64,000 bases of DNA, from contig JAGBTG010000031.1 in NCBI GenBank assembly GCA_017631435.1, positions 1 to 64,000 of the forward strand. Reading direction: 5' to 3'. Position numbers and translations under genes: made by a program. The notes beneath the pieces are model-generated. The model saw nothing but the letters and a program-made list of their open reading frames with translations. It was not told the DNA's origin and made no database searches. Positions 5,914 through 43,563 of the stretch are shown piece after piece. Every line of letters starts with the position of its first letter. Within the stretch, counting starts at the first letter, position 1. Source of the stretch: Bacteroidales bacterium (GTDB lineage Bacteria; Bacteroidota; Bacteroidia; Bacteroidales; UBA932).

Positions 5914-6720
5914 CTATTCAAACATATTCAGTTTATCTAATATTTTTGATTTGATATCATCAAAACCGGGTACTGCATTAATTTTACGTATAACAGTATC
6001 TTTATTTTCTTCTGGATACATCATGTCATCACACATTTTCTCTTTATATAAACAAGAATTAGTTTCCAATACACTTAGTAAAGTTGTGCAGTTGTTATAA
6101 TTCATAATGATTGATGCTATTCCCAAAGCCCTATATTGCGATAATTCAACATTGTTTTTATGCTCATTGTAAGATTTGAGCAATGTAATCATCTCATCTT
6201 CACTAATTTTTTGAGATGTATTTGCTTTATAGATAATGCTGTATATTTTCTGTAATGAATCAAGTACTGTGAGTTTGTCCAGTAATTTTATTTTTGCATT
6301 ATCAAAGCCTTCTACATGCTTTATATTGCTCATTACTATATCTCCTTCATTCGTTGACATCAAGTCATAACATATATCATCTCTCACCAAATTTGGGTTG
6401 TTTTCCAGTAAACGTAAAAAAGTTAAGCAGTTTTCGCGACTCTTTGTAATGGCAACTACTCCACAAGCCCTATTTTGCGCCAATTCTTCATCGTATTCTT
6501 GTAATTGATATGATTTCAGTAACTTTAACATTTCATCTTCGTTAATTACCTGAAAAACAATTACTTTATTTGTAATATGATATATTTCATTTATAGAATT
6601 GTCATGGTTGTTTATTGTTGTTTTGCAATTAGGTCTTTTGGTTGCATATTGTTCTGAATTGTTTGATTTGCAAGAAAGTGCCCCGCATAGTATTATTGTG
6701 AGTATGTATATTTTTTTCAT
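5914..6720 (-). CDS. Lipoprotein with two internal repeats, candidate immunity protein
   Basis: A 268-residue protein with a lipoprotein signal peptide (MKKIYILTIILCGALSC, lipobox Cys17) and no recognised domain. The mature part consists of two similar units of about 105 residues (45-150 and 158-264). Both contain EDEM, LLKSY, a Leu-Ser/Ala-Gln-x-Arg-Ala segment, a Cys near the middle and a GFD-x-x-K-x-x-x-LDKL ending, with a period of 113-114 residues. The ATG overlaps the stop of the upstream toxin remnant as ATGA, so translation was probably coupled. The position after a toxin end and an exported location suggest immunity against a cell-envelope toxin; this is inference. The region is much more AT-rich than its neighbours. 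Confidence 0.7.
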   Translation of the reverse strand: MKKIYILTIILCGALSCKSNNSEQYATKRPNCKTTINNHDNSINEIYHITNKVIVFQVINEDEMLKLLKSYQLQEYDEELAQNRACGVVAITKSRENCLTFLRLLENNPNLVRDDICYDLMSTNEGDIVMSNIKHVEGFDNAKIKLLDKLTVLDSLQKIYSIIYKANTSQKISEDEMITLLKSYNEHKNNVELSQYRALGIASIIMNYNNCTTLLSVLETNSCLYKEKMCDDMMYPEENKDTVIRKINAVPGFDDIKSKILDKLNMFE

Positions 6721-31456: not shown

Positions 31457-31495
31457 AAAAGTGCCCATTATGACGTCGTCATAATGGGCACTTTG
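31457..31495. terminator. Long palindromic terminator, partner of 33287-33319
   Basis: A 17-bp perfect stem (AAAGTGCCCATTATGAC, 31458-31474) with a 3-base loop, followed by TTTG. It lies between convergent genes. Its 33-bp core (AGTGCCC...GGGCACT) has the same length and plan as the palindrome at 33287-33319 on the other side of the C69 peptidase gene. Confidence 0.85.
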
Positions 31496-33254: not shown

Positions 33255-33286
33255 TAAAGTTAAGAAAAATTCCAAATGAGAACAAA
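33255..33286 (-). promoter_or_regulatory. Promoter of the C69 dipeptidase gene
   Basis: Reading leftward: TTTG (33286-33283), 20-bp spacer, TAACTTTA (33262-33255), close to the Bacteroidota consensus with one change in the last base. It lies 23 bp before the ATG and directly next to the palindrome at 33287. Confidence 0.55.
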
Positions 33287-33319
33287 AGTGCCCTTTAGGA
33301 CGTTGTCCCAAAGGGCACT
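33287..33319. repeat. 33-bp palindrome, partner of 31459-31493
   Basis: AGTGCCCTTT, a centre with GGAC-GTT-GTCC, and AAAGGGCACT form a near-perfect hairpin. It shares AGTGCCC, GACGT and GGGCACT at identical spacing with the palindrome downstream of the C69 gene. At least two stem pairs differ in both arms so that pairing is kept. Confidence 0.75.
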
Positions 33320-33394
33320 GTGGTTGAGAACTCGGACTTCATGAAGTTCCTTGAGCTTTGGGGCGGTGAATATGAGTTTTTGGATTTGTATTAA
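33320..33394 (+). pseudogene. Fragment duplicating the 3' end of the prolyl-tRNA-editing gene
   Basis: Bases 33320-33405 match 24312-24397 with about 4 differences in 86. The frame is kept and reads VVENSDFMKFLELWGGEYEF, then LDLY and stop at 33394, one residue different from the intact gene (Leu for His). There is no start codon or upstream gene body, so it is a dead tail. The match starts abruptly at the edge of the palindrome at 33287-33319. Confidence 0.85.
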
Positions 33395-38905: not shown

Positions 38906-39283
38906 ATGAACGAGATAAAATCTATAAGTGCAGACTTGGGCGATGCTGTGCTCATGTCCAATGACCCCAACCTCTTCACCGACAAAATCCAGATCCACGA
39001 GTGCGGCCGCGTGTACAAGACCCGTTACACCCGCAAGTTTGTGGAGAGGAAAAAGTGGGAGGCTCCCAACCCTGCCGAGGTGAGGTCAATCATCCCCGGT
39101 TCGGTAACCGAGGTGCTTGTAAAGCCCGGCGATAAAGTAAAGAAGGGCTCCAGGCTTATGATATACGAGGCAATGAAGATGAAAAACGTAATTGTTTCAC
39201 CTTTTGATGCTGTTGTAGAAAGCGTTGAGGTTAAGGCGGGAGACAAGCTCCCCAAGGGAGCGTTGCTGGTAATTTTAAAGTAA
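38906..39283 (+). CDS. Biotin carboxyl carrier protein
   Basis: A 125-residue biotinyl-domain protein. The biotin attachment motif is EAMKM with Lys91, flanked by VLVKPGDKVKKGSRLM and the C-terminal AGDKLPKGALLVIL. The first 60 residues have no Ala/Pro-rich linker and no family I recognise. It carries carboxyl groups for the carboxyltransferase encoded just upstream. The stop codon (39281-39283) lies within the 5' arm of a large cloverleaf-like inverted repeat, so the end of its mRNA would be folded. Confidence 0.92.
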   Translation: MNEIKSISADLGDAVLMSNDPNLFTDKIQIHECGRVYKTRYTRKFVERKKWEAPNPAEVRSIIPGSVTEVLVKPGDKVKKGSRLMIYEAMKMKNVIVSPFDAVVESVEVKAGDKLPKGALLVILK

Positions 39284-39407
39284 CGTCGTCTTTTTGTACA
39301 ACTCTTTGTCCCACAAAGAGTTGGAAAACAGGGGTGCTGCCTTCTGCAGCATCCCTTGTTTTCTATTTGCCTCAGGATGAGGCAAATGTACAAAAAGACG
39401 ACGTTAC
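39280..39407. repeat. Cloverleaf-like inverted repeat with three internal hairpins
   Basis: The outer arms 39280-39300 and 39387-39407 are a perfect 21-bp inverted repeat (GTAACGTCGTCTTTTTGTAC... and its complement). Between them lie three hairpins: ACTCTTTGT/ACAAAGAGT (39301-39321, 3-base loop); AAAACAGGGGTGCTGC with GCAGCATCCCTTGTTTT (39325-39362, one bulge and one wobble); ATTTGCCTCA/TGAGGCAAAT (39365-39387, 3-base loop). Nearly every base is paired. It may be a terminator, a small mobile palindromic element or a structured RNA. Nothing in it codes for protein beyond the biotin-carrier stop codon. Confidence 0.9.
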
Positions 39408-39471
39408 AAAGTAAATTTGCTTTGCGAGGGAAGTTTTAGTAACTTGGTCCTTTGTGAAAAGGACTGGGAAA

Positions 39472-39858
39472 ATGGAGGATTTGTGGTGCAAAAACAGACA
39501 GGATTTGGGCAAAAGGGGAGAGGATGTGGCCTTGGAATATCTTTTGCGGAGAGGAATGAAGCTGCTGGAGCGGAATTGGCGCAGCGGGCACAAGGAACTG
39601 GATCTGGTGATGGAGGAGGAGGGGTTTATACGGATAGTGGAGGTGCGCAGCAGGAGTGTCCCGGCGCAGATTGATCCGTTGGAGAGCGTAGACCATGTAA
39701 AGAGAAAGAAAACCATACAGGCGGCAAAGGGGTATGTGGCGGCCAACCGGAGCAGGATAAAGGGGAAGGAGGTAGTTTTTGATGTGGTCTCAATCCTTTT
39801 CAACGGGGAGTTGTTTAAAGTTGAATATGTACGGGAGGCATTTGCCCCCACTTGGTAA
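39472..39858 (+). CDS. YraN/UPF0102-family endonuclease-like protein
   Basis: About 128 residues from the ATG at 39472 (a GTG at 39454 is also possible but falls in a GTCCTTT/AAAGGAC hairpin). Family features: LGKRGEDVALEYLLRRG (about 12-28), the nuclease-type motif GHKELDLVMEEEGFIRIVEVRSR in which Glu, Asp and a Glu-x-Arg line up as in restriction-endonuclease-like folds, and FDVVSI near the end. The exact role of this widely conserved family is not settled. The next gene starts 14 bp downstream. Confidence 0.88.
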   Translation: MEDLWCKNRQDLGKRGEDVALEYLLRRGMKLLERNWRSGHKELDLVMEEEGFIRIVEVRSRSVPAQIDPLESVDHVKRKKTIQAAKGYVAANRSRIKGKEVVFDVVSILFNGELFKVEYVREAFAPTW

Positions 39859-40994: not shown

Positions 40995-42257
40995 ATGGCG
41001 GAGATATTGAGCCTTAATATACAGAGTGAAATTGGGGAACTGGAGGGGGTAATCCTCCATACTCCAGGAGCGGAGGTGGAGAACATGACACCAGGAACAG
41101 CCCAGAGGGCACTTTACAGTGATATCCTCAACCTCTCAATAGCAAAAACCGAATATGACCAGCTGCAGGGGGTGCTGGGGAAATATACCCGAACCTTCCA
41201 GGTAACGGATCTGCTTGAGCAGGTGCTTGCCAACTACAGCCAGAGGGAGATGCTCATAAAGAAAGTGTGCGAAAGCGAAGGGGCGCTGGAGTATTATGAA
41301 CAGCTGATGGCAATGCCGTCGGCGGAATTGGCAAAAGCCCTTATTGAAGGTGTACCTGCCAGGAAAAACACCCTTACTGCATTCCTGAGTGATGAATATT
41401 ATGCGTTGTATCCATTGTACAACTTCTATTTTACCAGAGATGCATCTGTAACTATCGGGAATAATGCCCTTATCTGCCGTATGGCCAACAAGGTGAGGAT
41501 GAGGGAGTCGTTGATTATGGAGGCAATCTTCAAAGGGTCCGGTGCATTCAGTGGCGGCATCATAAATGCCCATGAGTTCCAGCCAGGCTGCAACGACATT
41601 TACATGGAGGGTGGCGATATCCTTGTAGCCAGGGAGGACATCCTTGTAATAGGCAACGGTTGCAGAACCAGCACCAGGGGCATAGATCTTCTCATTGCAA
41701 GGCTCTGCAGGGAGCATACCCAGGGGACAAGGCACATCATTGTGCAGCAGCTCCCGTCGCAGCCGGAGTCTTTCATCCATCTTGATATGGTTTTCACTCT
41801 TCTCGACAGGGACAAATGTATGGTCTACGAACCCCTTGTCCTCCGCGACAACCAGTACCAGACCGTGCACATAACCATAGAGGACGGAAAAGTTTCAAAA
41901 ATAAGGAGCATCCCAACAATCCTTCACGCCCTCCGGGAGCTGGGAATGGACCTTGAGCCGGTAGCGTGCGGCGGAAGTTCAGATGAATGGAACCAGGAGA
42001 GGGAACAGTGGCACAGCGGGGCAAACTTCTTTGCCATAGCACCCGGAAAACTCCTTTCATACTCCCGAAATGTGAACACATTGGGAGAACTTTCAAAGCA
42101 TGGATTTGAGATAATCCCGGCGTGGGACATCATCCGCGGCAACAAGGACGCTGCAGATTACGCAAAATGTGTAATCACCATTGAGGGAAGTGAACTTCCC
42201 CGTGGAGGTGGTGGAGCCCGCTGCATGACAATGCCGGTGAGAAGGAAGAGCCTATAA
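40995..42257 (+). CDS. arcA: Arginine deiminase
   Basis: A 420-residue guanidino-group modifying enzyme that hydrolyses arginine to citrulline and ammonia. Features: ELEGVILHTPGAEVENMTP at the N-terminus, FYFTRDASVTIG, the EGGDILV loop, FIHLDMVFTLLDRD with the catalytic His, and the nucleophile Cys in GGGARCMTMPV near the end. No ornithine carbamoyltransferase or carbamate kinase gene is adjacent, so the rest of a deiminase pathway would be elsewhere. It follows manC by 24 bp. Confidence 0.93.
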   Translation: MAEILSLNIQSEIGELEGVILHTPGAEVENMTPGTAQRALYSDILNLSIAKTEYDQLQGVLGKYTRTFQVTDLLEQVLANYSQREMLIKKVCESEGALEYYEQLMAMPSAELAKALIEGVPARKNTLTAFLSDEYYALYPLYNFYFTRDASVTIGNNALICRMANKVRMRESLIMEAIFKGSGAFSGGIINAHEFQPGCNDIYMEGGDILVAREDILVIGNGCRTSTRGIDLLIARLCREHTQGTRHIIVQQLPSQPESFIHLDMVFTLLDRDKCMVYEPLVLRDNQYQTVHITIEDGKVSKIRSIPTILHALRELGMDLEPVACGGSSDEWNQEREQWHSGANFFAIAPGKLLSYSRNVNTLGELSKHGFEIIPAWDIIRGNKDAADYAKCVITIEGSELPRGGGGARCMTMPVRRKSL

Positions 42258-43487: not shown

Positions 43488-43563
43488 GCGGAAATAGCTC
43501 AGTTGGTAGAGCACAACCTTGCCAAGGTTGGGGTCGCGAGTTCGAGCCTCGTTTTCCGCTCCA
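43488..43563 (+). tRNA. tRNA-Gly (GCC)
   Basis: A complete cloverleaf: acceptor GCGGAAA (43488-43494) with TTTCCGC (43553-43559), D arm with GCTCAGTTGGTAGAGC, anticodon stem CAACC/GGTTG with anticodon GCC at 43521-43523, and a T arm with GTTCGAGCC. The discriminator base is T at 43560 and the CCA end is encoded (43561-43563). It has its own promoter and terminator, so it is a single-gene unit. Confidence 0.97.

Follow-up and report, generated by a model that had tools for sequence, protein, structure and literature searches.

What kind of sequence lies at the end of a biotin-carrier gene in an uncultured Bacteroidales bacterium (assembly GCA_017631435.1), where a stretch of 128 nucleotides can pair almost completely with itself, is the question raised by positions 39280-39407 of the window (i.e. 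the whole 64,000-nt stretch of contig JAGBTG010000031.1 that was analysed). An earlier note, made from the letters alone, had described near-complete pairing within perfect outer arms, and both features were recovered. The RNA fold paired 116 of the 128 bases and placed three hairpins within an outer stem of 20 bp (39280-39299/39388-39407), whilst the arms themselves (39280-39300 and 39387-39407) are 21 nt each and perfectly complementary. Folding was compared with shuffled sequences on 148 nt containing the 128-bp element. A minimum free energy of -82.1 kcal/mol was obtained for RNA, whilst shuffled sequences averaged -29.0 (sd 3.75; z = -14.2) and none of 200 equalled it, and the DNA fold gave -55.5 as compared to -13.7 (z = -14.5), bearing out the excess of structure that had been noticed.

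The left outer arm (GTAACGTCGTCTTTTTGTACA; 39280-39300, plus strand), which recurs in other copies, contains the TAA stop codon (39281-39283) of the biotin-carrier gene, as had been pointed out; this ORF (125 aa; 38906-39283, plus strand) ends within the arm and is context outside the element proper. Three plus-strand hairpins follow, namely H1 (39300-39322; 39300-39309/39313-39322, 10 bp with a loop of 3), H2 (39323-39364; 39323-39340/39346-39364, 18 bp with one bulged base at 39356) and H3 (39365-39387; 39365-39374/39378-39387, 10 bp with a loop of 3), and the right outer arm (39387-39407, minus strand) is a perfect inverted copy of the left. The downstream ORF (134 aa; 39454-39858, plus strand), which we take to resemble YraN/UPF0102, has relatives that were used as a marker of the shared locus. 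A scan of the window against Rfam at gathering thresholds returned a tRNA at 43488-43560 as its sole match and nothing for the element; the suggestion of a tRNA-like fold was thus not supported, and identity with a tRNA or another known RNA family was rejected.

A BLAST search of the window's own genome (G000) with the element returned 87 matching pieces, so that the reading as a small palindrome repeated at other genomic sites was supported. Full copies numbered 21 in the loci fetched from this genome and 67 across five genomes of the genus, although these counts are not independent because many copies are orthologous. Core length was nearly fixed (121 nt in 40 of 50 cores; range 111-122), with conserved arms and highly variable interiors. 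Many copies had been found through the arm pattern and the arms are thus partly the search key; outer arm positions were also conserved in copies from genome G008 that were found by the inner pattern alone. Eight solo arms were present in the fetched loci of the window's genome, some of which (L039 and L042 among them) retained adjoining hairpin sequence, suggesting that the unit may be an arm plus a hairpin. In two cases (L039 near 1108 and L040 near 1086) an apparent start codon followed a solo arm at a distance of a few dozen bases, and two arm pairs in genome G006 (L109, 790-990; L110, 831-1198) stood further apart than the usual 121 nt, enclosing about 200 nt and 368 nt.

The distribution of arms was examined in 39 genomes of the genus using a loose pattern with at most two mismatches, for which the reversed pattern gave 0 to 3 matches per genome. 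There were 53 matches in G000, 49 in G006, 16 in G008, 29 in G010 (where the arms are of a variant sequence) and 11 in G013; the two matches in G019 and the one in G034 were no higher than the reversed control, and the remaining 32 genomes had none. A strict inner-arm pattern requiring both arms occurred at 15, 13, 15 and 3 places per strand in G000, G006, G008 and G013, respectively, and at none in the other 35 of the 39 genomes, with a reversed control of zero. In named genome contigs, the exact two-arm pattern was found in 13 stretches, all belonging to two Bacteroidales MAGs, SIG161 and SIG149. No movement of the element was seen among the genomes compared.

The earlier note had also proposed a REP-type transposase as a partner, and this tie was strengthened by RAYT genes beside copies, by co-occurrence over the genus and by inverted repeats at other RAYT loci. 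Two Y1 transposase genes are present in the window's genome. The start of one of these, the RAYT gene P0001, lies about 90 bp from an element copy. Its product scored 37.7 bits against PF01797 (cut-off 23) and 26.6 bits, below the cut-off of 80, against the NCBIfam model REP_Tyr_transpos, which matched all 14 members of the RAYT alignment at E ≤ 0.01. Residues H58, H60 and Y115 were invariant in the 14 aligned RAYT homologs and are the putative catalytic HUH and Tyr positions, as assigned by motif (NHAH and YILRNA in P0001; YIL.NP in the orthologs). A profile search of P0001 against solved structures produced only four weak matches to GABA receptors, which are implausible and were judged spurious.

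Homologs of P0001 at E ≤ 1e-10 were detected in 15 of the 39 genomes, but close orthologs, at 57-65% identity, were confined to G006, G008 and G010; arms were most abundant in these three carriers and in G000. The exception was G013, whose 11 arm matches were found without a close RAYT in an assembly that is 89% complete. Copies of the element flank the RAYT ortholog on both sides in G006, and one copy sits just upstream of it in both G008 and G010. The G008 gene (L055/L164) contained one TAG within the matched stretch of its reading frame. In G024, a 122-nt element with unrelated arms comes immediately after a RAYT of 38% identity, and the arm of this element occurred 32 times in that genome as compared to 0 for the control. 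Across the family, 30 of 299 genomes, belonging to 3 of 25 genera, carried RAYT homologs at E ≤ 1e-25. Inverted repeats spanning 105-148 nt were located within 1.5 kb, usually near the gene, at 16 of 33 RAYT loci, with none in five local shuffles of each locus, and their arm sequences differed between genomes. The search found nothing at the other 17 loci, one of which (L055 in G008) adjoins an interrupted element. Several of these repeats and the elements of G024 lacked clear inner hairpins, suggesting that only part of the genus may have the three-hairpin form.

The second Y1 transposase gene of the window's genome, P0002 (L050), is preceded at a distance of a few hundred bases by four GGGCACATT repeats. 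A second, short palindrome type (AAAGTGCCC/GGGCACTTT) was observed at five sites in the window as compared to 0.93 expected, including 31458-31494, 33281-33325, 6675-6683 and 41107-41115. This palindrome and P0002 are perhaps a second REP/RAYT pair.

We consider it probable that the element at 39280-39407 is a non-autonomous element of REPIN/TIR type belonging to an uncultured Bacteroidales genus, with arms that are recognised by a RAYT, that has been copied or converted and has settled at a gene end. Its architecture would be that of two inverted units, each of an arm and a hairpin (H1 or H3), around a spacer hairpin (H2). The arms would serve as recognition ends for the RAYT, which would copy or convert the element through single-stranded DNA. 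At the window's locus the element would have settled between two genes, ending the first, with H2 predicted to terminate transcription from both sides.

The general kind, i.e. a REPIN/TIR-type element beside a RAYT gene, is already known. Bertels and Rainey (2011, PMC3116915) described REPINs, REP doublets that form a hairpin. Their account lists conserved ends in inverted orientation and at a constant spacing, a variable spacer whose length and pairing both matter and which carries compensatory changes, and proximity to a RAYT. The family described here has a pair of inverted, conserved ends a fixed distance apart, a variable spacer with compensatory hairpin changes (H1 and H3 both being perfect in no more than 19 of the 67 copies) and, with the exception of G013, an association with a RAYT. 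It differs from the REPINs of that account (PMC3116915) in that arms of 20-21 nt pair mutually around two hairpins and a spacer hairpin, and in that arms are uniform per species at shared loci; moreover, no tag of GTAG/GTGG type was found at a conserved position in an alignment of 47 copies.

Another comparable group is that of the TIRtron/TIRYT repeats (Di Nocera et al. 2013, PMC3733652), in which long inverted repeats with no relation to GTAG REPs stand on either side of RAYT-like genes and form families of copies, some of the copies being dimeric and others self-complementary. A RAYT, long non-GTAG inverted repeats at its flanks and dispersed copies were all found here. The TIRtrons were described in other organisms, and a fixed three-hairpin unit and the behaviour at orthologous loci are absent from the portions of that account available (PMC3733652). 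Subclass 2.6 of the TnpA-REP proteins, from Bacteroidetes, is reported in the sections covered to have flanking structures that lack GT[AG]G and have copies elsewhere in the genome (PMC6006769), and the present family resembles it in having a Bacteroidetes RAYT, structures without GT[AG]G and copies elsewhere. The structures of this subclass are weaker as reported there, and P0001, for which Y1_Tnp, HUH and Tyr features of RAYT/TnpA-REP proteins were all identified (the HUH and Tyr roles by motif), departs from the subclass motifs NH[LIV]H and YIH[QN]NP given in the same sections. CGTC REPs, a class found in Bacteroidetes, are outlined in the available text as having an unpaired tag, a stem of 8-9 bp, a loop of 4-5 nt, a short tail and no associated transposase gene (PMC3733652). 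The element arm does contain CGTC; however, as compared to that outline, this motif is paired in the outer stem, reads CGTT in G006 and has a RAYT adjacent. No report of the element family or of arm conversion at orthologous loci was recognised in the literature covered, from which subscription papers were mostly absent. What is new here is the form, with its long arms and three hairpins, the near all-or-none Watson-Crick hairpins and the species-wise uniformity of arms at shared loci.

This last feature was examined using flanking proteins, by which many copies were found to occupy loci common to several genomes. For 47 copies in 17 locus groups (including the window's own locus but leaving out L136, which is interrupted, and L169, whose locus is uncertain), arm identity was 0.911 within genomes as compared to 0.812 between orthologous and 0.823 between unrelated copies. 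Interiors of the same copies had identities of 0.527, 0.595 and 0.526, respectively. When genome labels were shuffled within groups, arm identity reached at most 0.882 in 500 trials, and the result also held in a smaller set of 44 copies in 16 groups. Arms follow the species and interiors follow the locus, i.e. the arms evolve in concert. Type A arms numbered 47 in G008, two in G006 and none in six other genomes searched; the sets of matches to types A and B overlap because the types differ by 3 bases. The reading ACGTT was present in 48 of 49 G006 matches and in four among the 43 matches listed of the 53 in G000. Exceptions to this uniformity were the G006 copy at the window's locus (L135), which is of a non-G006 type, and a G000 copy (L044) of the G006 type; G008 also retains some old-type arms. 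Orthologous interiors of G006 and G008 were 0.71 identical over 10 pairs, which by our estimate is about that expected from the synonymous divergence of two neighbour genes (dS 0.37 and 0.53). One G006/G008 pair (L097 801-921 and L118 801-921) had interiors that were 99% identical, above the other pairs, perhaps reflecting a recent exchange.

The RAYT genes of G006 and G008, at the same locus, were only 68% identical with saturated synonymous sites, whilst their neighbours were 95-96% identical, pointing to either allele replacement or very fast evolution. Species-wide uniformity of arms could arise by arm conversion, through RAYT cleavage and strand transfer or through repair, or by selection to fit a changed RAYT. 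We tentatively propose that the arms of old inherited copies have been rewritten, one arm at a time, to match the resident RAYT allele, and that this process at the level of DNA also maintains some of the copies as perfect Watson-Crick cloverleaves. A RAYT at a fixed locus would be exchanged or evolve fast, and dozens of arms would follow by strand transfer or conversion. That REP sequences could evolve by gene conversion is reportedly an old idea, going back to Higgins et al. in 1988.

A conceivable, if somewhat doubtful, alternative holds that a sequence-specific protein, the RAYT or one of the host, binds the arms, and that a shift in its specificity between species was followed by point mutations in both arms of each copy. 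Substitutions in 25 ortholog pairs bear on this reading. In the outer stem, 35 double and 5 single changes kept a pair as compared to losses by 25 single and 5 double changes, and the pair-keeping double changes, together with the existence of single-step arm variants, are as selection on binding sites would predict. The divergence of the two RAYT genes amid conserved neighbours also suggests that RAYT specificity may differ between G006 and G008. Against this, arm types differ at several adjacent bases together, and the left and right arms of a single G008 copy can be of different types, both of which are better fitted by exchange of whole arms than by stepwise change.

The interior hairpins behaved differently from the outer helix, in which 97.3% of cells were paired over 47 copies. 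Paired substitutions in relatives, which the earlier note had named as a check, were present in H1, H2 and H3. Over the 47 copies, 77.2% of cells were paired as compared to 69.5% in shuffles and 40-47% when slid, and double changes numbered 293 as compared to 160; none of 500 shuffles reached any of the five measures. Both H1 and H3 were perfect or nearly so in 19 of the 67 copies and neither in 46, with one alone in only two (L132 and L135), and a similar division was seen among the 46 copies of 121 nt (both perfect in 13, neither in 32, one in 1). This joint perfection disfavours quasipalindrome template switching acting hairpin by hairpin. Where H1 was open (25 copies), H1 and H3 paired at the level of chance (6.0 of 10 each), H2 had 9.8 of 14 pairs as compared to 8.5 by chance and the outer stem retained 15.6 of 16. 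Between orthologs, H2 pairs were kept by 46 double and 14 single changes and lost by 86 single and 30 double changes, loss being commoner than retention by double change. A long stem between the left side of H1 and the right side of H3 was rejected as a general structure, its pairing being at chance (6.65 of 10 as compared to 6.62); three copies (L106, L100 and L124) had this pairing in full.

RNA helices tolerate G-U pairs. The inner hairpins H1, H2 and H3 of the 19 perfect copies comprised 599 Watson-Crick and 5 G-T pairs, and the formed H1 and H3 pairs of 30 imperfect copies comprised 308 and 61, respectively. The near absence of G-T pairs from perfect copies favours upkeep at the level of DNA over that of RNA, pointing to maintenance of the perfect inner hairpins as DNA and disfavouring RNA-level conservation as the main cause of their perfection.

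The link to gene ends that had been drawn from the biotin-carrier stop codon extended to the family, since stop codons of neighbouring ORFs recur at element ends across copies. Stop codons of ORFs of at least 100 aa lay within the searched range on 62 of the 124 sides of 62 copies; 20 were at one exact register (TAACG/TGACG), 10 at -5 and 6 at -3. The ends of GTAG REPs can likewise supply stop codons, according to the sections of PMC3733652 covered. With genes called by ORF length alone, neighbours of the 62 copies were co-directional in 34 cases, convergent in 19, divergent in 8 and undetermined in 1. One copy at a locus common to three genomes (L032 near 1014, L096 near 801 and L166 near 823) sits within a long ORF (398-442 aa) on the opposite strand of the locus. 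H2 has conserved A and T tracts and scored as terminator-like on both strands, matching the pattern of a GC-rich stem with a T run behind it, with three pattern sites in the 1 kb scanned as compared to 1.2 expected; judged by its sequence, it probably ends transcription from both sides at the biotin-carrier locus.

At this locus an orthologous element was present in G006 (L135), and G008 (L136) had the start of an element that is broken in the H2 region by a stretch resembling an insertion sequence. The element is missing here from G013 and G019, in which the biotin-carrier protein is several codons longer and is followed by an ordinary terminator-like hairpin, and neither genome offered a clean empty site. 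The tree places G000, G006 with G008 and G013 with G019 without a resolved order, and gain and loss of the element could not be distinguished.

That the family is a host RNA element, retained for two-way termination or as structures at mRNA 3' ends, with the RAYT link as a relic, would agree with the location of copies at gene ends, with the conserved tracts and two-stranded terminator likeness of H2 and with the replacement of an ordinary terminator hairpin at the biotin-carrier locus. We nevertheless regard this as unlikely given the ratio of 599 Watson-Crick to 5 G-T pairs in the 19 perfect copies, the long species-uniform arms that a terminator does not need, the frequent loss of H2 pairing in orthologs and the different arms found beside different RAYTs. 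A MITE whose arms are the terminal inverted repeats of a classical (DDE) transposon, moved by another transposase, would also be short, with perfect terminal inverted repeats and dispersed copies, and MITEs are said to occur in Bacteroidales such as Porphyromonas gingivalis, but the adjoining gene in four genomes is a Y1/RAYT gene and the inner hairpins covary, making this explanation highly improbable.

The structure at 39280-39407 is a clear case of a repeat at a gene end that carries both a stop codon and a terminator-like hairpin. The genus provides a natural experiment, in which the same sites are occupied across species by arms that are species-specific and the RAYT diverges fast. If arms are converted in place, these repeats would persist by rewriting and not by new insertion alone; if the proposed rewriting to the resident RAYT allele is true, the family would be a self-updating system of dispersed repeats.
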